The translations under genes and the position numbers were made by a program. Below the pieces are notes generated by a model, which did not search any database, was not told where the DNA came from, and saw only the letters and a program-made list of their open reading frames with translations. From Candidatus Rifleibacterium amylolyticum (GTDB lineage: Bacteria > Muiribacteriota > Ozemobacteria > Ozemobacterales > Ozemobacteraceae): 64,000 nucleotides of DNA. Below are positions 10,349-22,740 of the stretch, piece by piece. The DNA is taken from positions 248,001-312,000 of the forward strand of contig JAACJG010000002.1 of assembly GCA_009917695.1 (NCBI GenBank), given 5' to 3'. The number at the start of each line of letters is the position of its first letter. The first letter of the stretch is position 1.

Positions 10349-11512
10349 CTAATTCCCTGAAATCCCCAACGTGGAGTTAAATCCAGAACCAGGAACATTG
10401 CCATCTTCTATTTGCTCTTCATCTGTATCATCGCCTTCGGCGGGATCAGAAGATTTATCTTCGGGAAACGCTTCTGCCGGCTCAGCATCAGGAACAGGCC
10501 TTATCGGGCTTGCTGCCATACTCTCATCGACTTCTTCTTTCGCCGGATGCTGAGATGAAGCATCACTTTCACCTGCAGGCGATTCGGCCGCGCCCTTGTC
10601 CAGCCTGTCCAGAGCCTCAACAGGCAGAAGTCTTTTCAGGTTCATCAGTGAAGATACCTTATCCCGCCCGGGTTCTTTAACATCGAGAATCTTGCCCGAG
10701 CTGGCAATCAGCAGAAGATGTCCGGCCCGCAACAACTTTCTTTCAAGTGTCTTTGACCTGAACTCCACCACTCCCTCCAATACTCCGACAAAACTTGTAT
10801 CTGAGGAGATTTGCTGAACGAAAACAGTTCCAAGCACCCCGGTTGTTCCAATGGGTGTTGATATTTCGACAGGCACTGGCGGGGTCTGAGACTTGATTTG
10901 AAAAATAGCACGACCTTGTTGATGATAGCCTGAACTGTAGTTGTCGCTGACCTGAAAATAAGCATCCGGACCAAGTGAAACAGTTGAACCACAAGAAAAT
11001 GTCAGCTCGACCTCAGCAGAGTCGCCTGTTCGCACCGAATCACCCTTTGCGAGAGCATCAGACAGTGACGCCAGAACATAACCGTCGGCGCCGGCAAGAC
11101 GCTTTTCTACTTCCCGATCGATTCTGGTAATGGTGGCGACAGTCTCTTCAGCAGCCGTAATCTGCGCTTTTTCGAGGCTGGGAGAGCCCGGTCTGATGTA
11201 GAACATCACCAGTATCGCAAAGCCGACGAGAGACAACCAAGCCAGCTTCCAGAGCGACGGCAGAATACTGACAGACTCTTCAGCGGACTTTCTCCCGCTG
11301 CCAGAGCACTGCAGCATTACCTTCTTCTTAATATCTGGAATAGCTGCTGCCAGCCCAGGAGACAACCGCGGGAAACACTGCTCAGTCAGCTTTTTCAGAA
11401 GAGCCGAACAGACCGGGCAGCTTTTGACATGCGCCTGCAACACTGCCGGAATATCAGCCAGTCCGGCGTCAGGGCTGTTCTCAAGCCACTCTCTGAATTC
11501 ATGACAATTCAT
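10349..11512 (-). CDS. Membrane anti-sigma factor with zinc-finger N-terminus and FecR-like periplasmic domain
   Basis: Residues 1-40 hold the H-x3-C-x2-C motif (H28, C32, C35) of zinc-binding anti-sigma domains, which clamp ECF sigma factors in the cytoplasm. A single membrane helix lies at about 88-106. Residues ~150-275 resemble a FecR domain (GDSVRTGDSAEVELTF, then a STPIGTTGVLGT stretch), here periplasmic. The C-terminal ~100 residues are acidic, Pro/Ser-rich and end in TLGISGN. The start overlaps the sigma gene stop by 14 bp, so the pair is translationally coupled. FecR domains usually sense a signal passed from the outer membrane; the signal here is unknown. Confidence 0.88.
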   Translation of the reverse strand: MNCHEFREWLENSPDAGLADIPAVLQAHVKSCPVCSALLKKLTEQCFPRLSPGLAAAIPDIKKKVMLQCSGSGRKSAEESVSILPSLWKLAWLSLVGFAILVMFYIRPGSPSLEKAQITAAEETVATITRIDREVEKRLAGADGYVLASLSDALAKGDSVRTGDSAEVELTFSCGSTVSLGPDAYFQVSDNYSSGYHQQGRAIFQIKSQTPPVPVEISTPIGTTGVLGTVFVQQISSDTSFVGVLEGVVEFRSKTLERKLLRAGHLLLIASSGKILDVKEPGRDKVSSLMNLKRLLPVEALDRLDKGAAESPAGESDASSQHPAKEEVDESMAASPIRPVPDAEPAEAFPEDKSSDPAEGDDTDEEQIEDGNVPGSGFNSTLGISGN

Positions 11513-12038
11513 CCGGATTGTCCTCCTGAATGCGCCTGATCGATCGGCATACTACATTTCTCAGGCTTCCCTCTGACATTCCTGTGATTTCGGCAATTTC
11601 CCCGTATGATAAACTTTCCAGAAATCTCAGCTGCAAAATCTCGCGATCTCTTGCCGGTAGACTCTTCAACAATTCCGGCGCATTACCAATACCATCCTGA
11701 GCCGGAATGGCAGGCTCATCGACCTCCTGACTGTCAAATGAAAATGTCTTGATCTTCTTCTTGCGGTAACAATCGATCAAAGTCCGGCGGGCAATCGTAA
11801 AAAACCAGCTTTCAAACCTGCCTGTAGATTTAAAACTGCCGAGTGCCTGAAAAATCTTGACCAGAATATCCTGCGTTATATCTCTTGCTTCTTCGTTACT
11901 TTTGACAAACAGCACTACATAACGCAAAAGCCTTTCAATGTAACGTTCGAACAGAACATCGAGCATCTTTCTTTCGCCACGGATAATCCTGGCAACGATC
12001 TGTTCATCAGTAATTCTATGCTTGTCTAAAGGCGTCAT
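11499..12038 (-). CDS. ECF-type RNA polymerase sigma factor (179 aa)
   Basis: Region 2 is visible around residues 20-95 (ARDITQDILVKIFQAL, then RFESWFFTIARRTLIDCYRKKK). Region 4 lies at ~125-170 (LPARDREILQLRFLESLSY, then a helix-turn-helix with GEIAEITGMSEGSLRNVV). The length is typical for an ECF sigma factor. It is followed by its anti-sigma partner with a 14-bp overlap. About 24 bp upstream of the ATG lies a TGACAA-N10-ATATCGTT motif that also precedes the pilin-like gene at 16053. This suggests the factor controls itself and the adjacent pilin-like operon. Confidence 0.95.
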   Translation of the reverse strand: MTPLDKHRITDEQIVARIIRGERKMLDVLFERYIERLLRYVVLFVKSNEEARDITQDILVKIFQALGSFKSTGRFESWFFTIARRTLIDCYRKKKIKTFSFDSQEVDEPAIPAQDGIGNAPELLKSLPARDREILQLRFLESLSYGEIAEITGMSEGSLRNVVCRSIRRIQEDNPDELS

Positions 12039-12847: not shown

Positions 12848-13309
12848 TCAGTAGCGCCCCTTCAACGTCATCAGCTGAATGCGCCGGTTACGCGCGCCCC
12901 AGCTGACGGTGACTGCAATGCGCAACATGGCTGAATCTTTGACCAGCACGCCTGAGACAGGGTAAGAATCGACGAGTACATGCGTCGAAAACTCCGGCGG
13001 CAGCGGGCGGCTGCTCATGCCGTGCCGGTTTCCGTTCAACGCCGCCGTAGCAAAAGGATCAGGCGCAAAAACATCATTGTTGAACGCTACCTCGGCATCC
13101 ATAAGACACAGCTGGTCGAATGGCAGTGCCTGCAACGCCTCTATCAGCTCAGATGCGAAGTTTACCGAAGTGACCTCTTCGAGAGTGGCGCGCGTATTCT
13201 GATGCGACGCTGAGTAGGTCGAGAGAATCGGCAGCAGTGCCAGCCCGATCACTACCAGCGCCAGCACCAGCTCAATATAACTGAATGCTCTTTGGGCATT
13301 GTTGTTCAT
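12848..13309 (-). CDS. Pilin-like protein (PilV/GspI-like, 153 aa)
   Basis: The N-terminus (AQRAFSYIELVLALVVIGLA) has the basic leader, Phe, Glu at +5 and hydrophobic helix of a class III prepilin, again with Ala before the cleavage site. The small size and the following segment (EEVTSVNFASELIEAL) fit PilV/GspI minor pilins. It starts inside the stop of the 915-aa upstream gene (4-bp ATGA overlap) and is followed 1 bp later by the next pilin-like gene. Confidence 0.82.
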   Translation of the reverse strand: MNNNAQRAFSYIELVLALVVIGLALLPILSTYSASHQNTRATLEEVTSVNFASELIEALQALPFDQLCLMDAEVAFNNDVFAPDPFATAALNGNRHGMSSRPLPPEFSTHVLVDSYPVSGVLVKDSAMLRIAVTVSWGARNRRIQLMTLKGRY

Positions 13310-16053
13310 GGCTGGTCCGCCTTTTCATCTGCCCAGTAAACCAGCGATTTGCCGAGATGCACACGAATACCGGCCGAATAGCGGTCAGGATCGATCACAT
13401 TGAACTTTTCGTTCCAGACAATTGTCTGCCTCTGGGATCCTGAGTCTGGATAACCATGAAACAGCGACGAAGCATTCTTATTAAAGTCGAGATAACTGAC
13501 GGCAACGCCGCCGACGATGTGTATTGCACCGGCGGCCGCGCGACGCAGGGTTCCAGACGAGATGAAAAAGGCTTCATAGCGACCAGGCCTGAAATGAATA
13601 TCTTTACCTTCAACTGCGGTGGCGATGACCAGACTGTCCTGCGGGTTCTGCAGACGAAGAGAATTTTCGAGCAGAATCTCTCCACCTGAAGCTATCAGCA
13701 TGCCACCATTGCGCACGATTATTTCGTTGCCGCTGCTCGCGCTCAGCTTTATCTGGTCGTTGAGAACGGTTACCACGCCGCCGCGCAGGTCGAGAACTGT
13801 TTTTCCGTTTTCCTCGCTGAGAAAATTCTCTGCAAAAATAGCAGCGGAGGATGCCACGAAGGTTGTTTTCTGACGCAGGTCATAGCCGGTGATACCGCTG
13901 CCGGCATTCGCGGCAGCCGGCAACGAAAAGGCCGAAGAAAAGGGCCAGAGCACACCGAGAGAGCCCAGTGCCAGCTGGCGGCCGTCCGTATCTTTGATCG
14001 ATATGCATTCGCCGCTGATCCCGCGGCCATTCTGCGAACTGTCAGGATTCTTGTAAAAAAAACTGTTGCCAAAATCAGCGATCGCACCTGAAACTGGCGT
14101 GCCACTGCTGCTGTCAGCGCCGTGCAGCACGTCGGCCAGTTGAGCCGGCAAGGTTTTAAGCCGCAAGGGCGGATCGCTTGGCGCACTTCCGCCAGGCACA
14201 AACAGGCTTACGGCAGTTCCCCGCATGTTGTCGTTGATCATCTGCTCAAAAATAATCATACCCGGATAGATCAGCATCTTCGTCATGATGATGTCGCATA
14301 TTTCAAGCGGGTTCCCGATTTTTTCGAAAACATGGGTGTACACATTATAGGCAACCTTGGCGAAGTCCGCCGTGGCCGTTCCGATGTCATCATCGACCCG
14401 CCCCCAGACAGGATAATTTGCCCAACCCACCCTGTCGTTACTGAATTCAAGCGAGAAGGTTGGCGGACTTGCCTGACGGTTGGCAATAATCGGAAAGAAC
14501 GGGAAAAAATATTTGGCCGGCTTAACTGTATTGGCCGGGCTGTCAAGCTGACGCAACCAGTCACCGGGCGGAGTCTGGTCGAGAGCCGTTTTCATGTCAT
14601 CGTCGATCTGCGCAATGTTACCGACCTGCATAAAGCGCAACCAGGCGCCGAGCATGATGGTAGGTGAACGACGGTCGGCTATCTGCGAAGAACTGAGCGG
14701 AAACATGTCGCCCATCGGCAGTATCAGCGAAGAATGCACCGATTCAAGACTCGCCGCAGTATCGCCAACCTGGTGTTGCGGATGCTCGTAGTAGCTGACG
14801 AGCAGGTGATATAGCGACACCGCTTCGAGCAGTTCTCGGCTCATCGACATCAGGCCGAACCTCGTCTGCCAGGCCATCCAGCCGCACAGATTCGTGCCAT
14901 CGCCGTCAGCCAGACCAGAGGCCGGCATATTTATACCTCCGCTGTTCGGAAAAAAATTGCTCCAGGCCGGACTGGTCGGCGAATCGTCGCGCAGCAGATA
15001 ATAAAGCTTGCTGCGGTCAGAAAGCATGTAGCTGCCACCATAGAAGAGATGAAATTTGTTCTGAAAAGCAGGTGGCAGGGTCGCATGATTGGCGGCAATC
15101 TTAACATCGCCATGCATCGGCTGAAAAATGTAGTATTGCAGAGGGCCGCTATCAGGGCTGCGACCCAAAAACACCCAGCCGCGCCTGAGCAGGTCGATAT
15201 TGGCCCAGTCAGCCGGAATCGGTGGTGCCACCGAATCTTCGGGAATAGCTGACGAATTACACACTCTCGCCTCGTCATCCGGGTGATGAATCAGAGTCAA
15301 CGGGTTGTTCAGCCCATTTGAATCTGGTTCGACAAAGCCGAAAGAGTCGAGAAAAGGCGGATTCACGCGCGATGAATTGCGCAGCCTGTTCCAGTCGTAG
15401 TCGATGCCGTTCTTTTTTTCTCTGACAAAGAGCGTGAATTTGCCGAACACACCCGGCAGAATGTTGATCGCCTTGATATCGCGCACGACCACGAACTTGC
15501 GGCGAAAACCACGAAAATCAGCTTCGATTTCTGCCTTGAGCAGCCCGAAAACATCAGTCGGATCTGGATATATCTGTCCCTGCGTTTTCGGGTCGAAAGA
15601 GGTCGGCGGCACAGCTACCGCTGTAAAAAGAGGCTTTATGCCAGACAGCGTCAGCGTGACCTTTCTGATGACATCGATTCCATCATAGGCATCACGCAAC
15701 AAGTTGATAAAAGGCAGCTGCGCAGCCGTCAACTGCATGCTGACCGTATCAGGGGCTGAAGCGCCAGAATCGCGCAACCGCACGAAAATCAGGTTAGCTG
15801 GGTCGTCTGGGTTGTCCTGCAGCCAGCGGAAAGCTTCTTCGGCGACTCCTTCGGAGGCTTTGGTAACCAGATCGTTCCAGTATACCCGGTGAGCTCGCAG
15901 CGCTTCCTGCCTGACATGCGACTGATAAGCCACCACCATGACGATCATTATCGGAATCAGAGCCGCCGCCAGGCCCAGCAGAAAGCCTCTGGACCCCGAC
16001 ACCCCCCTTCTAAAACCCGCTAATAAACAACTCAACAAAATACCTCGCGCCAT
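13306..16053 (-). CDS. Large pilin-associated membrane protein, PilX/GspK-like N-terminus (915 aa)
   Basis: After a 22-residue basic leader comes a hydrophobic helix (GFLLGLAAALIPIMIVMVVA) and then a helical stalk, the layout of PilX/GspK-type minor pilins but with a far longer extracellular part (~870 residues). The exported part has no recognisable domain. The last third contains a beta-rich stretch (IFAENFLSEENG, LDLRGGVVTVLNDQIKLSASS) resembling right-handed beta-helix or adhesin sequence. It is the first gene of the second pilin-like operon and sits behind the ECF-like promoter motif at 16082-16105. Assignment to PilX/GspK rests on the N-terminus and operon position. Confidence 0.75.
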   Translation of the reverse strand: MARGILLSCLLAGFRRGVSGSRGFLLGLAAALIPIMIVMVVAYQSHVRQEALRAHRVYWNDLVTKASEGVAEEAFRWLQDNPDDPANLIFVRLRDSGASAPDTVSMQLTAAQLPFINLLRDAYDGIDVIRKVTLTLSGIKPLFTAVAVPPTSFDPKTQGQIYPDPTDVFGLLKAEIEADFRGFRRKFVVVRDIKAINILPGVFGKFTLFVREKKNGIDYDWNRLRNSSRVNPPFLDSFGFVEPDSNGLNNPLTLIHHPDDEARVCNSSAIPEDSVAPPIPADWANIDLLRRGWVFLGRSPDSGPLQYYIFQPMHGDVKIAANHATLPPAFQNKFHLFYGGSYMLSDRSKLYYLLRDDSPTSPAWSNFFPNSGGINMPASGLADGDGTNLCGWMAWQTRFGLMSMSRELLEAVSLYHLLVSYYEHPQHQVGDTAASLESVHSSLILPMGDMFPLSSSQIADRRSPTIMLGAWLRFMQVGNIAQIDDDMKTALDQTPPGDWLRQLDSPANTVKPAKYFFPFFPIIANRQASPPTFSLEFSNDRVGWANYPVWGRVDDDIGTATADFAKVAYNVYTHVFEKIGNPLEICDIIMTKMLIYPGMIIFEQMINDNMRGTAVSLFVPGGSAPSDPPLRLKTLPAQLADVLHGADSSSGTPVSGAIADFGNSFFYKNPDSSQNGRGISGECISIKDTDGRQLALGSLGVLWPFSSAFSLPAAANAGSGITGYDLRQKTTFVASSAAIFAENFLSEENGKTVLDLRGGVVTVLNDQIKLSASSGNEIIVRNGGMLIASGGEILLENSLRLQNPQDSLVIATAVEGKDIHFRPGRYEAFFISSGTLRRAAAGAIHIVGGVAVSYLDFNKNASSLFHGYPDSGSQRQTIVWNEKFNVIDPDRYSAGIRVHLGKSLVYWADEKADQP

Positions 16054-16430: not shown

Positions 16431-18401
16431 ATGAAAAAAGTAGACAAGCTGTTCAAGAACGCTACAGTTCTCACTGTAGACGAAAAGTTCAATCAGTATT
16501 ATCCCGGTGCGGTGGCCGTGTCTGGCGATTCGATCGTCGCCGTCGGCAACCAGGAAGAAATCTGCAAGGAATATGAAGGCGCCGAAATCATGGACTGCCA
16601 CGGCAAGATCCTGATGCCCGGCCTGATCAACGGGCACACGCATGTGCCGATGACCCTGCTGCGCGGCCTTTCAGACGACCTGCGCCTCGATGTCTGGCTG
16701 ATGGGTTATATCATGCCGGTAGAGCGCGAATTTGTATCGCCTGAATTCGTCACGCTCGGCACCAAGCTCGCTTGCGCCGAAATGATCAGATGCGGCACCA
16801 CTACTTTTGCCGACATGTATTATTTTGAGGAAGAAATCGCCAAAGCGACTGCCGACGCCGGCATGCGTGCCATCTGCGCCGAGAGCGTTCTTAAATTTCC
16901 TGCTCCCGACGCGCAGTTCTACGAAGAAGCGCTTACCCGCACCCGCAGCTTCATCGAAGAGTGGAAAAATCACCCGCTCATCGTTCCGGCTATTGCGCCG
17001 CACGCCCCCTATACCTGTACTCCAGAAATTCTACAGGCCTGTTCATCAATAGCTCGCGAATTCGACGTGCCCCTGATGATTCACATCGCTGAAACCGCCT
17101 GGGAAGTAGACCAGCTGCGAGAAGAGCATGGCGTGCCGGTTGTACCTTACATCAAGCGCCATCACCTGCTCGACGCCAAACTGATCGGCGCCCATCTCGT
17201 TCATATCGATGAAGGCGAAATCCGTGATCTCGCCAAATACGGTTGTGGCGGCGTCCACAATCCGTCTTCAAACCTCAAGCTCGCTTCGGGCGCGGCACCT
17301 GTCGCCAAGATGATAGAACTCAACATGAACGTAGGCATCGGCACCGATGGCCCGGCTTCGAACAACGACCTCGACATGTTCGAAGAAATGCGCCTGACAT
17401 CGTTCCTGGCCAAGCTCAAGTCTGGCGATCCCACCACTCTGCCGGCAAAAACTGTAGTTTACATGGCCACCCGCGGCGGCGCCAAAGCATTGCACATGGA
17501 CAAAATAACCGGTTCAATCGAACCCGGCAAGCGCGCGGATCTCATTCTTGTCGATCTGCAGCCCGTTCACAATGCTCCCCGGTTCATGCGTGACCCCGAT
17601 GGCGCATACGCCCAGATCGTTTATGCCAGCAAATCTAATGACGTAACTCATGTCATGGTCAACGGTAAATGGCTGATGAAAGAGCGCCAGCTGCTTACCG
17701 TCGATGAATCGTCGCTGCTCGAAGAAGCCAAAATTTTCGCCGCCAAGGTCGATAAATTCCTGAGCGAACGCGAACAGTCGCTGCTCTCCAAGCTTGTTGC
17801 CATCGGCGGCGCCACTCAGGAAGAAAGCTTCGAAGTGCAGACCAAGGTCAAAGTCGATGATATCAACCCAATTCTCGAAAAGATCAACCTGCCCGAAATC
17901 ATTATCGAACAGAAGAAGCACTACAAGCAGTTCGATACTTATTTCAAGTTCAACAATACCGACGAGATGATCCGCTACCGCGAAGACGAACTGCTCGACG
18001 ACAAGGGTAACGTCAAAAGCGTGCGCCCACGCCTGACCATGATCGGCGAAGGCAAGAGCGGCGTTCACCCCGAAAGCAAAGTTCTGCTCTCGCGCAGCCG
18101 CTACATCGCCCAGGCCGGCAATTCGCTGCGCTTCTACCGCGAATATTTCCGCCCCGACTCGATGTTTGAAATTCAAAAAGACCGCCTGCGCTTCCACGTG
18201 CAGTTCAAAGGTATCAAGTTCTTCATCAATGTCGATACCATGGTTCAGCCTGAAATCGGAAAATTCGTCGAAATCAAGAGCAAGACCTGGAGCAAGATCG
18301 ACGCCGAACAGAAAACCCGCCTGATCGCTTCGTTGCTCGCCTTCCTCGGCCTCGAATCACAGTCAGCCATCCATCAGGACTACCACGAGCTCAAAAACTG
18401 A
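16431..18401 (+). CDS. Amidohydrolase (MtaD-like deaminase) fused to a CYTH domain (656 aa)
   Basis: Residues 1-440 are a complete metal-dependent amidohydrolase of the methylthioadenosine/S-adenosylhomocysteine deaminase group. The visible active-site elements are GHTH with H69/H71, HIAET with H218 and E221, AHLVH with H255/H258, and GTDG with D306. Residues ~466-642 are a CYTH domain (fold of class IV adenylate cyclase and thiamine triphosphatase). It opens with EVQTK in place of the usual ExExK, continues with RPRL near 532-535, and ends with the characteristic NVDTMVQPEIGKFVEIKSK near 600-618. The first half should deaminate an adenosine-type thioether; the second half should bind or cleave a phosphorylated ligand. 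The gene stands alone before a strong terminator. Confidence 0.88.
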   Translation: MKKVDKLFKNATVLTVDEKFNQYYPGAVAVSGDSIVAVGNQEEICKEYEGAEIMDCHGKILMPGLINGHTHVPMTLLRGLSDDLRLDVWLMGYIMPVEREFVSPEFVTLGTKLACAEMIRCGTTTFADMYYFEEEIAKATADAGMRAICAESVLKFPAPDAQFYEEALTRTRSFIEEWKNHPLIVPAIAPHAPYTCTPEILQACSSIAREFDVPLMIHIAETAWEVDQLREEHGVPVVPYIKRHHLLDAKLIGAHLVHIDEGEIRDLAKYGCGGVHNPSSNLKLASGAAPVAKMIELNMNVGIGTDGPASNNDLDMFEEMRLTSFLAKLKSGDPTTLPAKTVVYMATRGGAKALHMDKITGSIEPGKRADLILVDLQPVHNAPRFMRDPDGAYAQIVYASKSNDVTHVMVNGKWLMKERQLLTVDESSLLEEAKIFAAKVDKFLSEREQSLLSKLVAIGGATQEESFEVQTKVKVDDINPILEKINLPEIIIEQKKHYKQFDTYFKFNNTDEMIRYREDELLDDKGNVKSVRPRLTMIGEGKSGVHPESKVLLSRSRYIAQAGNSLRFYREYFRPDSMFEIQKDRLRFHVQFKGIKFFINVDTMVQPEIGKFVEIKSKTWSKIDAEQKTRLIASLLAFLGLESQSAIHQDYHELKN

Positions 18402-18428: not shown

Positions 18429-18473
18429 ATCCCGTAGTGATCGGTCGCGACCGATCACTACGGGATATCTTTT
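18429..18473 (+). terminator. Strong bidirectional hairpin terminator
   Basis: A perfect 38-bp palindrome (arms of 19 nt, 18429-18466) is followed by a T-rich run. It lies between the convergent amidohydrolase and HAD genes and probably ends both transcripts. Confidence 0.88.
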
Positions 18474-19440: not shown

Positions 19441-19980
19441 TTACAGGGGTTTCATCTTGCGGGTTTCGGGCTTTGATTCTCCGGCGGCCATTGATTTTTC
19501 ACGTTTGAAACTGTTGAGGAAATCGGCAATCTTGTCTTCAAAGATGCCAACCGGGCGTTTTTCCATCGAAGGTACCCGATCGCTTTCGTTACCGATAAAA
19601 TAAAGGGCAGGATGAAATTCATAGCGGGTGCGGGTCAAAGTGACTGCAAAACCGACAACTTCGTTTTCGTCGTAAGTAAAGTCGGTTGCAGAAGGAGATG
19701 CCTGCAGCTGAACGCGGGTGCCGTCGGCACAGCGCACAGGTTTGCCTTCATTCGGCTCGGCGAAGGGAAAAAACAGCTGCTGCCCGTCTTCGAGTTCGGC
19801 CAGCAGATCTTTCCAGGTCGGGGCTTCCGGGTTGCCACGCTTCGCAATATTGTCTTTTTCGCGCCAGATATAATCTGAAAGCACCATGTCGGTAGTGGCG
19901 ATGCGCTTAAAATGCGCCAGCATGCTCTTAACGAAATCCTGAAAGTCAAAATCAGCCTTTTCATATTTCCAGGTAATCAT
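19441..19980 (-). CDS. Unknown cytosolic protein (179 aa)
   Basis: The start at 19980 follows GGAGG at 5-nt spacing; the longer frame to 20031 has no such signal. The protein has no signal peptide or membrane helix. It is a mixed alpha/beta sequence with a helical N-terminus (FQDFVKSMLAHFKRIATTDM) and a strand-rich middle (ATDFTYDENEVVGFAVTLT), and its C-terminus is basic and probably disordered. I do not recognise a family, and its neighbours give no functional clue. Confidence 0.75.
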   Translation of the reverse strand: MITWKYEKADFDFQDFVKSMLAHFKRIATTDMVLSDYIWREKDNIAKRGNPEAPTWKDLLAELEDGQQLFFPFAEPNEGKPVRCADGTRVQLQASPSATDFTYDENEVVGFAVTLTRTRYEFHPALYFIGNESDRVPSMEKRPVGIFEDKIADFLNSFKREKSMAAGESKPETRKMKPL

Positions 19981-20183
19981 GTTTTCCTCCGTTACTTGTG
20001 GCAAAGCTTCCGTCGCCATGCCCTCTCGCAAATTTTCTGCCGCCGGCGTTTAAACCCGGTCGCTAAATACAATTTACGCCGCTTCTGAACTCTTTGCAAT
20101 CACCTGTTGTGTTTTCGTCTTTTTCAGTGAAAAGCCAGAGCTGGATACTGCGGCTACGCACATGACGATTGCACCTTATCTGG

Positions 20184-20866: not shown

Positions 20867-20886
20867 GTATGGGTATGGAGAAAACT

Positions 20887-22740
20887 ATGTACATAATCAG
20901 ATCAGTCAGATGTATTCTTCCCGCGATAGTGCTGGCAGTTCTCGTGTGTGCGGCACCGGCCGAAGCCGCGCGCGGCAACCGCATCGACGCCACCCATATT
21001 CTCGCACGTGAGATCGAACTGCCCGAGCGCAGCAGCCCTGCTATGGGCCCGATATCAGGCGTTTCTTATGCAGACGTCAACCCAGAAATCTCTGTCAGCC
21101 GGGCGCCGGTAAAATCGCTCGGCCATAAAGAACAGTTCTGGGTCAGAAATATGGCCAACAACCAGTTCGACCGGATAACCGCTATTCTGCGTGCTGTCGG
21201 CAAAAGCTGCTACGTCTATGTTGAAGATACCCAGAGCGTCAAGCAATCCGCCATTGATCGTGTACAAAAAGAATTCGATCAGAAAATCTATCCGGTAACC
21301 ACCGGCCATTTCGGATACGAAGCACGCCCGGGCCTGGACGGTGAAGACCGCATCAACCTGTTGATGGTTGACATCCAGGATGGCTACCAGAACCCGGAAG
21401 ACGGCTACGTCGCCGGTTATTTCTTCGCCGGTGACCAGATGCTGCAGTCAGAATTTCCGACACACAGCAAGACAAAAAGCAATCAGCGCGAAATTCTGTA
21501 CATCGACACCTATCCCTGTGACCCCGAAGCCGACGACTATCTCGAAATCGTCGCGCACGAGTTTCAACACATGATTCATTACAACCAGGACAAAGACGAA
21601 GTCTCCTGGGTAAACGAAGGCTGTTCACAGATCGCCCCGGTTTTCTGCGGTTTCACGCCGCCAGGACACTATAAGCTGCTCAAAGAAGACCCTGACCGCA
21701 GCCTCAATAACTGGGCACAATGGAACCCGATGCCCGATTATGGCCAGGTCTACCTGTGGAACCAGTACATAGTTGACCGACTGTTGCACGACAGCAAAAG
21801 CCGCACCAGCTTTTTCAAGGCACTCGCCGGCTCGAAGCGCAAAAGCATTGGCGGTTATATTGACGCACTCAAGCCTTTTGAGGTGTCTTTCAGTGACCTG
21901 TTCACCGATTTTGCGATTACCAACCGCATCAATGATTCTAAGCTGGTAGATGGCCGTTTCGCCTACCGCCAGTCGGTGCTCAAAAAGTTCAAACTGCCGC
22001 CGACCCGGCATATAAATACAATTCCGTCCAAGGTCAGCGAAAGTGTTTACGTCTGGGGCTCAGACGCCTTCTTTACCGACATCGCCAATGTTTCAGGGAA
22101 GCTGAAAGTATCTTTCTCAGGCTACCGCAGATCGATTGGCCCAACCCACCCCTACTTCCGAGTCGCTGTGATCGAACAGGATTCAACCGGTATCAAAGCG
22201 CCAAAAATCGGCTTTTTTAAACTCGCGGTAAATCCGGCTGACAAAAACCGTCTGATTGGCAGTTTCGAAATCAACTGCAACAACGAGTATGACAGTCTGA
22301 CGACCATCGTCATGGCTCTCGCGCCTGAAAACGTCGAAGACAAAGAATATATGCCGGCTTCAGGCTTCATTTACGATCTGATTTTCGAAGCCGACCGGCC
22401 GATCAGCAATATAGCGCGAGCAGTGCACAGTGTCGATATGCAGGCATTTGCCGAGGCAATCACGCAGGTTTCTGACACCCAGAGCGAAGCGGCTTTCAGA
22501 TTACGTGAGCACTACGCCAATCTGCTGATCAGAACCATTCAACGCGATGCTGACCGTGGCTCTCTGCAGACCGTCGATAATTTTATCGAATCAGCCGGTG
22601 ACCAGAAAGCATTTGCGCCTTTCGCCCGCGACATCTCGGGCATGCTGATGTTTCTGAAAAACCAGCAGAGCAGCTCGATACCGGACGAAGACCTGCAGAA
22701 CCGCATCGACTTTCTCAATCAGCTGGTGCACCAGCGCTGA
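20887..22740 (+). CDS. Secreted M30 (hyicolysin)-like zinc metallopeptidase (617 aa)
   Basis: The start at 20887 has GGAG 6 nt upstream and opens a Sec signal peptide ending near AEAA. The zinc site is HEFQH (near residues 223-227), followed ~17 residues later by WVNEG, where the glutamate is the third ligand. HEFQH...NEG is the pattern of family M30 peptidases, which cleave proteins outside the cytoplasm. The stretch before it (DRINLLMVDIQDGY, then VAGYFFAGDQ) also fits the family. The C-terminal ~250 residues are of unknown fold. The gene ends exactly where the converging ternary-system operon ends (shared TGATCA). Confidence 0.85.
   Translation: MYIIRSVRCILPAIVLAVLVCAAPAEAARGNRIDATHILAREIELPERSSPAMGPISGVSYADVNPEISVSRAPVKSLGHKEQFWVRNMANNQFDRITAILRAVGKSCYVYVEDTQSVKQSAIDRVQKEFDQKIYPVTTGHFGYEARPGLDGEDRINLLMVDIQDGYQNPEDGYVAGYFFAGDQMLQSEFPTHSKTKSNQREILYIDTYPCDPEADDYLEIVAHEFQHMIHYNQDKDEVSWVNEGCSQIAPVFCGFTPPGHYKLLKEDPDRSLNNWAQWNPMPDYGQVYLWNQYIVDRLLHDSKSRTSFFKALAGSKRKSIGGYIDALKPFEVSFSDLFTDFAITNRINDSKLVDGRFAYRQSVLKKFKLPPTRHINTIPSKVSESVYVWGSDAFFTDIANVSGKLKVSFSGYRRSIGPTHPYFRVAVIEQDSTGIKAPKIGFFKLAVNPADKNRLIGSFEINCNNEYDSLTTIVMALAPENVEDKEYMPASGFIYDLIFEADRPISNIARAVHSVDMQAFAEAITQVSDTQSEAAFRLREHYANLLIRTIQRDADRGSLQTVDNFIESAGDQKAFAPFARDISGMLMFLKNQQSSSIPDEDLQNRIDFLNQLVHQR

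Follow-up and report, generated by a model that had tools for sequence, protein, structure and literature searches.

Why is a deaminase of the MTA/SAH type joined to a CYTH domain, and what might that domain do there? The question is raised by a single uninterrupted frame in the window, the stretch of 64,000 nucleotides analyzed here, which belongs to a genome of 5.39 Mb in 35 contigs whose nearest named relatives are Candidatus Riflebacteria. The original prediction had read this frame as a genuine fusion of the two domains, and a related-locus search bears this out, as it returned 80 separate contigs encoding practically full-length fusions at 59-93% identity. An assembly join or a chance frame is refuted by these independent copies; with the same full-length frame present in dozens of genomes, we regard such an artifact as vanishingly improbable. 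The features discussed below are collected in Table 1.

Within the N-terminal half, residues 60-415 match Amidohydro_1 (Pfam, 1.1e-73), and the best relatives in the PDB are the MTA/SAH deaminases 4f0r (1.1e-91), 3lnp, and 4gbd. The top NCBIfam model scored 457 bits, which is under its own cut-off of 540, and no NCBIfam equivalog cut-off was reached. The metal-binding and catalytic residues H69, H71, H218, E221, H255, and D306 are invariant in the sequences covering them, and the earlier description of an MtaD-like enzyme with all its metal ligands therefore stands. With the known enzymes (4f0r/4f0s, PA3170 4gbd, and TM0936 1p1m/2plm), the fusion shares the amidohydrolase fold and the HxH...H...H...D site, together with the conserved E98, HNPxSNxKLASG, and GTDGxASNNDLDM; unlike them, it has an extra CYTH domain, a DDLRLDVWLxGY loop, and K/R155. 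We predict that the deaminase half is a metal-dependent enzyme of the MTA/SAH deaminase family with activity of the adenosine-analogue type.

In TM0936, the arginines R136 and R148 hold the homocysteine part of SAH. The fusion lacks equivalents of both, as they align with E/Q151 and a non-arginine residue in the fused family. Furthermore, position 155 is K/R in most fused members as opposed to D/E in the solved MTA deaminases (VLDFP and ILEFP). Because the homocysteine-binding arginines of TM0936 are absent, SAH as a substrate is not supported, and the coupling to SAH specifically that had been proposed is weakened. An SAH-specific role is ruled against not only by the missing arginines but also by AhcY, which is encoded in the window's genome. 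PNP-family phosphorylases and MtnA are encoded there as well, so that an MTA/MTI route is possible. We infer that the substrate is a 5'-modified adenosine, for instance, MTA or 5'-deoxyadenosine, rather than SAH.

Two genomes of the genus g11 (G021 and G022; loci L176 and L177), which belongs to the same family-level group as the window's genome, are without the fusion and encode a natural unfused deaminase of approximately 470 amino acids, with 49-51% identity to the fused enzyme. In the loop formed by residues 82-98, the fused members share a fixed LDVWLxGY, whereas this unfused relative has LDEWLNDY; it is thus without VWLxGY, and it has an Arg at the position of TM0936 R136. In 14 divergent Chloroflexota members (loci L136-L152, the most divergent branch), residue 276, the H of HNPSSN, is replaced by P, and in equal number, D82 is exchanged for A and R85 for Q in this branch. 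Judging from these exchanges, the members in question possibly have another substrate preference.

The C-terminal domain is less readily recognized. The last 200 residues of the window copy have no Pfam match alone and no PDB match by single-sequence search, and a PDB profile search with the domain also gave no match. In 14 of 53 relatives, however, the same domain is matched by PF01928 (CYTH; best, 1.6e-5), and more distant relatives score up to 34.9 bits (1.7e-8) over model positions 3-154 of 179. The PF01928 cut-off of 23.2 bits was passed by three of the seven relatives scanned and not by the window copy. An AlphaFold model of the whole protein, built with 53 sequences, reached a pLDDT of 88 and a pTM of 0.86, and that of the isolated domain reached values of 86.5 and 0.83, respectively. 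When the isolated-domain model was compared with the PDB by Foldseek, there were 49 matches at E values up to 1e-3 (best, 9e-9), with CyaB-like, archaeal TTM, and SaTTM structures at the top and plant TTMs, thiamine triphosphatase, Cet1, and Mediator Med18/20-type barrels at lower ranks; the predicted structure has the eight-strand tunnel fold. When profiles were compared with those of canonical CYTH proteins from related genomes, the match was weak, but the ExQxK-to-RxR stretch aligned as expected. The CYTH/TTM fold, identified only via relatives and structure prediction, is in our view confirmed at the level of a predicted structure, in agreement with the original assignment.

Table 1. Features of the fusion gene and its product (window coordinates)
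Feature	Position	Strand	Basis
Deaminase-CYTH fusion protein	16431..18401	+	Complete ORF, 656 aa; architecture repeated in 80 contigs
MTA/SAH-type aminohydrolase domain, residues 1-440	16431..17750	+	Nearest solved structures 4f0r, 3lnp, 4gbd
HxH metal ligands H69, H71	16635..16643	+	Invariant, 110/110 covering sequences
Loop DDLRLDVWLxGYxxPVE, residues 82-98	16674..16724	+	Sequence comparison
K155	16893..16895	+	K/R in 104/110 fused members
H218 (metal) and E221	17082..17093	+	Invariant
H255, active-site histidine	17193..17195	+	Invariant
D306, metal and catalytic aspartate	17346..17348	+	Invariant
Interdomain connector, residues 441-466	17751..17828	+	F443, R447, E448, K454 in 111/111 sequences
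CYTH/TTM-fold domain, residues 467-656	17829..18398	+	Pfam in relatives, AlphaFold, Foldseek
ExQxK (E468, Q470, K472), replacing CYTH hallmark ExExK	17832..17846	+	111/111
DxY (D502, Y504), cf. D38/Y40 of SaTTM	17934..17942	+	111/111; motif function, PMC8233210
RxRED (R515, R517, E518, D519), phosphate-binding RxR position	17973..17987	+	111/111
RxRLTxI, residues 532-538, with I/L/V at the lysine of canonical LTxK	18024..18044	+	Mapped by motif
RxR (R555, R557), strand 5, acidic in canonical members	18093..18101	+	R557 111/111; register approximate
KxRxR (K583, R585, R587), cf. K110/R112 of SaTTM	18177..18191	+	111/111
ExK (E614, K616), replacing second metal motif ExE (E135/E137 of SaTTM)	18270..18278	+	111/111
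C-terminal helix, residues 623-638, candidate plug helix	18297..18344	+	AlphaFold model

The tunnel of this barrel differs from that of known CYTH enzymes. SaTTM has the motifs ExExK (E5 and E7), DxY (D38 and Y40), RxR (R56 and R58), K69, K110/R112, and ExE (E135 and E137), with metal 1 held by E7 and E135 and metal 2 held by E5, E7, and E137 (PMC8233210). Mapped by motifs and strand order rather than by superposed coordinates, these correspond in the fused family to E468/Q470/K472, D502/Y504, R515/R517, I538, K583/R585, and E614/K616. On this mapping, the equivalents of E7, E137, and K69 are replaced, and hence two of the four metal-holding residues of SaTTM, while the substrate-binding DxY, RxR, and KxR are kept. 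A catalytic TTM triphosphatase has ExExK and a strand-8 ExE, both of which are missing here, in addition to the three motifs that are present. The fusion therefore resembles members of the CYTH/TTM superfamily such as SaTTM, the archaeal CyaB-like proteins, and YpCyaB in its eight-strand barrel, in DxY, RxR, and KxR, in the first E of each metal motif, and in the K of ExExK; unlike them, it has ExQxK and ExK, no TxK lysine, extra arginines, and a deaminase partner. The original prediction had quoted the altered first motif correctly (EVQTK) and had missed the second change, from ExE to ExK, within EIGKFVEIK. It took RPR and EIGKFVEIK for intact CYTH motifs, but RPR lies at the strand of the canonical LTxK and EIK is the substituted ExE. 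Its suggestion that CYTH catalysis may be lost is strengthened by the changes in both metal motifs and at the TxK lysine, and such a loss now appears probable.

In a set of 111 sequences with a domain identity to the window copy down to approximately 37%, E468, Q470, K472, D502, Y504, R515, R517, E518, D519, R557, R567, F568, Y569, E571, K583, R585, R587, D602, E614, K616, T619, and D624 never change, and residue 555 is R or K throughout. Invariance at this level of divergence argues for purifying selection on the changed site rather than for decay; strong purifying selection acts on the tunnel despite ligand loss at both known metal sites. Stand-alone canonical CYTH proteins with ExExK are present in the window's genome and its relatives, so that the change is a peculiarity of the fused family. 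Two known activities were rejected on the basis of motifs. AC-IV cyclases require HFxxxxExExK and ExA (PMC8233210), and here, EEESF precedes an ExQxK and the second motif is ExK, which speaks against a class IV adenylyl cyclase (CyaB). The W/YxRxR of thiamine triphosphatases is absent, position 513 being M in the window copy and mostly R in relatives.

We favor, with a probability of about 0.5, the reading that the protein consists of a deaminase, a connector, and a noncatalytic CYTH tunnel that binds a small polyanion and thereby controls or positions the deaminase. The barrel, joined to the deaminase by a short conserved connector, would no longer be a triphosphatase or a cyclase. Q470 and K616 would abolish both metal sites, with K616 possibly substituting for the charge of the metal, so that a small polyanion, such as a di- or triphosphate or a nucleotide, would be bound without turnover. 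The CYTH fold, the invariant altered motifs, the fully kept deaminase active site, and the fact that the domain is never found alone are points in favor. Because the metal-holding residues are exchanged identically in every relative examined, the barrel may be a sensor or a binding site rather than an enzyme, and it could plausibly act by allostery or by binding a ligand; control over the deaminase is suggested by the fusion and its conservation.

The main rival to noncatalytic binding is that the CYTH domain has retained enzymatic activity but with a different chemistry, for instance, as a pyrophosphatase-like or metal-independent phosphohydrolase, which would make the protein bifunctional. 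Catalysis of this kind is possible given the two-domain proteins AtTTM1/TTM2 (7z67), in which a TTM domain lacking ExExK and ExE is likewise attached to a second enzyme and which yet are reported to hydrolyze pyrophosphate (PMC8233210 and PMC8615392). Their partner, however, is a uridine-kinase-like domain, and the similarity of their TTM fold to that of the fusion is moderate (TMq, 0.54). The strict conservation of K616, Q470, and DxY suits an active site equally with a binding site, whereas the TxK lysine has been exchanged along with two metal ligands, and the literature searched showed no known CYTH activity with ExQxK and ExK; on balance, we consider this rival unlikely. It is also conceivable that the substrate of the deaminase itself has a phosphorylated tail that the tunnel holds, with both domains recognizing an anionic adenine derivative. 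Position 155, where the charge is reversed from D/E to K/R, and the DVWLxGY loop peculiar to the family hint that the substrate is not simply MTA or SAH, which would fit this idea, but the role given to K155 is itself inferred, and we judge a shared substrate to be distinctly unlikely. More doubtful again is a merely structural or oligomerization module. Deaminases of the same family do exist without the domain, including the natural unfused relative at approximately 50% identity, and the connector is conserved, but a scaffold would not need the invariant charged positions of the tunnel motifs.

The fusion is not confined to the window's lineage. Among 40 genomes of its own phylum (Riflebacteria), 15 contain the domain, all within the window's family-level group and always in frames of 654-711 amino acids, and 40 of 201 sampled Chloroflexota genomes contain it in long frames, except for one frame ended by a contig edge; with the coverage being these two phyla, the distribution is a minimum. 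None of the 16 Riflebacteria matches and none of the 40 Chloroflexota matches, one of them cut by the contig end, is a stand-alone CYTH domain of the fused type. In a tree of 65 sequences, the Riflebacteria form one clade (99/97) adjoining Anaerolineaceae, with deeper Chloroflexota lineages outside. With a root placed by midpoint only, this suggests one transfer from Chloroflexota to Riflebacteria. Copies on viral contigs and plasmids were looked for, and none was found.

The surroundings of the gene point to no particular pathway. No conserved genomic context of the fusion was found in Riflebacteria, and no credible RNA switch was found upstream of the gene in the window. Past the gene lies a terminator-like element (18429..18466, +) with a perfect 17-bp stem, a tetraloop, and a T tail; this likely terminator separates the fusion gene from a HAD-hydrolase gene that converges on it. 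Two neighboring frames, 19441-20031 (-; 196 amino acids) and 20869-22740 (+; 623 amino acids), are without any Pfam match, as is that at 13306-16053 (-; 915 amino acids), which stands in a row with two prepilin-like proteins. At 10349-12038 (-), a FecR-domain protein adjoins an ECF sigma factor, with no obvious receptor gene beside them. In Chloroflexota (loci L032-L100), a CinA-like gene precedes the fusion in 57 of the 100 loci compared, mostly at a distance of one or two genes upstream; its product has MoCF and CinA_KH domains followed by a C-terminal part of approximately 130 amino acids without a Pfam match. Further neighbors are an M14 peptidase, a membrane protein, starch synthase, or CoaE; seven loci belonging to the divergent branch have CoaE downstream of the fusion. 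No clear pathway emerged from these 100 loci.

We found no description of a CYTH-amidohydrolase fusion in the literature searched, which mostly did not extend to subscription journals; domain databases may list the architecture uncommented, as Pfam finds CYTH in some members. The group is large and old, and both metal motifs have been replaced in one fixed way, always on the same deaminase. CYTH domains are known as enzymes, and if the favored reading of a noncatalytic tunnel is true, this family would show clearly how the fold of an enzyme can become a domain for ligand binding. Since cultured Leptolinea carry the fusion, it is open to study in cultured organisms. More tentatively, these domains might form a previously undescribed class of CYTH domain, a metal-free sensor that recognizes a small polyphosphate or a nucleotide and sets the rate at which by-products of S-adenosylmethionine are salvaged; if so, an energy or alarm signal would control the turnover of MTA or 5'-deoxyadenosine in Chloroflexota and Riflebacteria.
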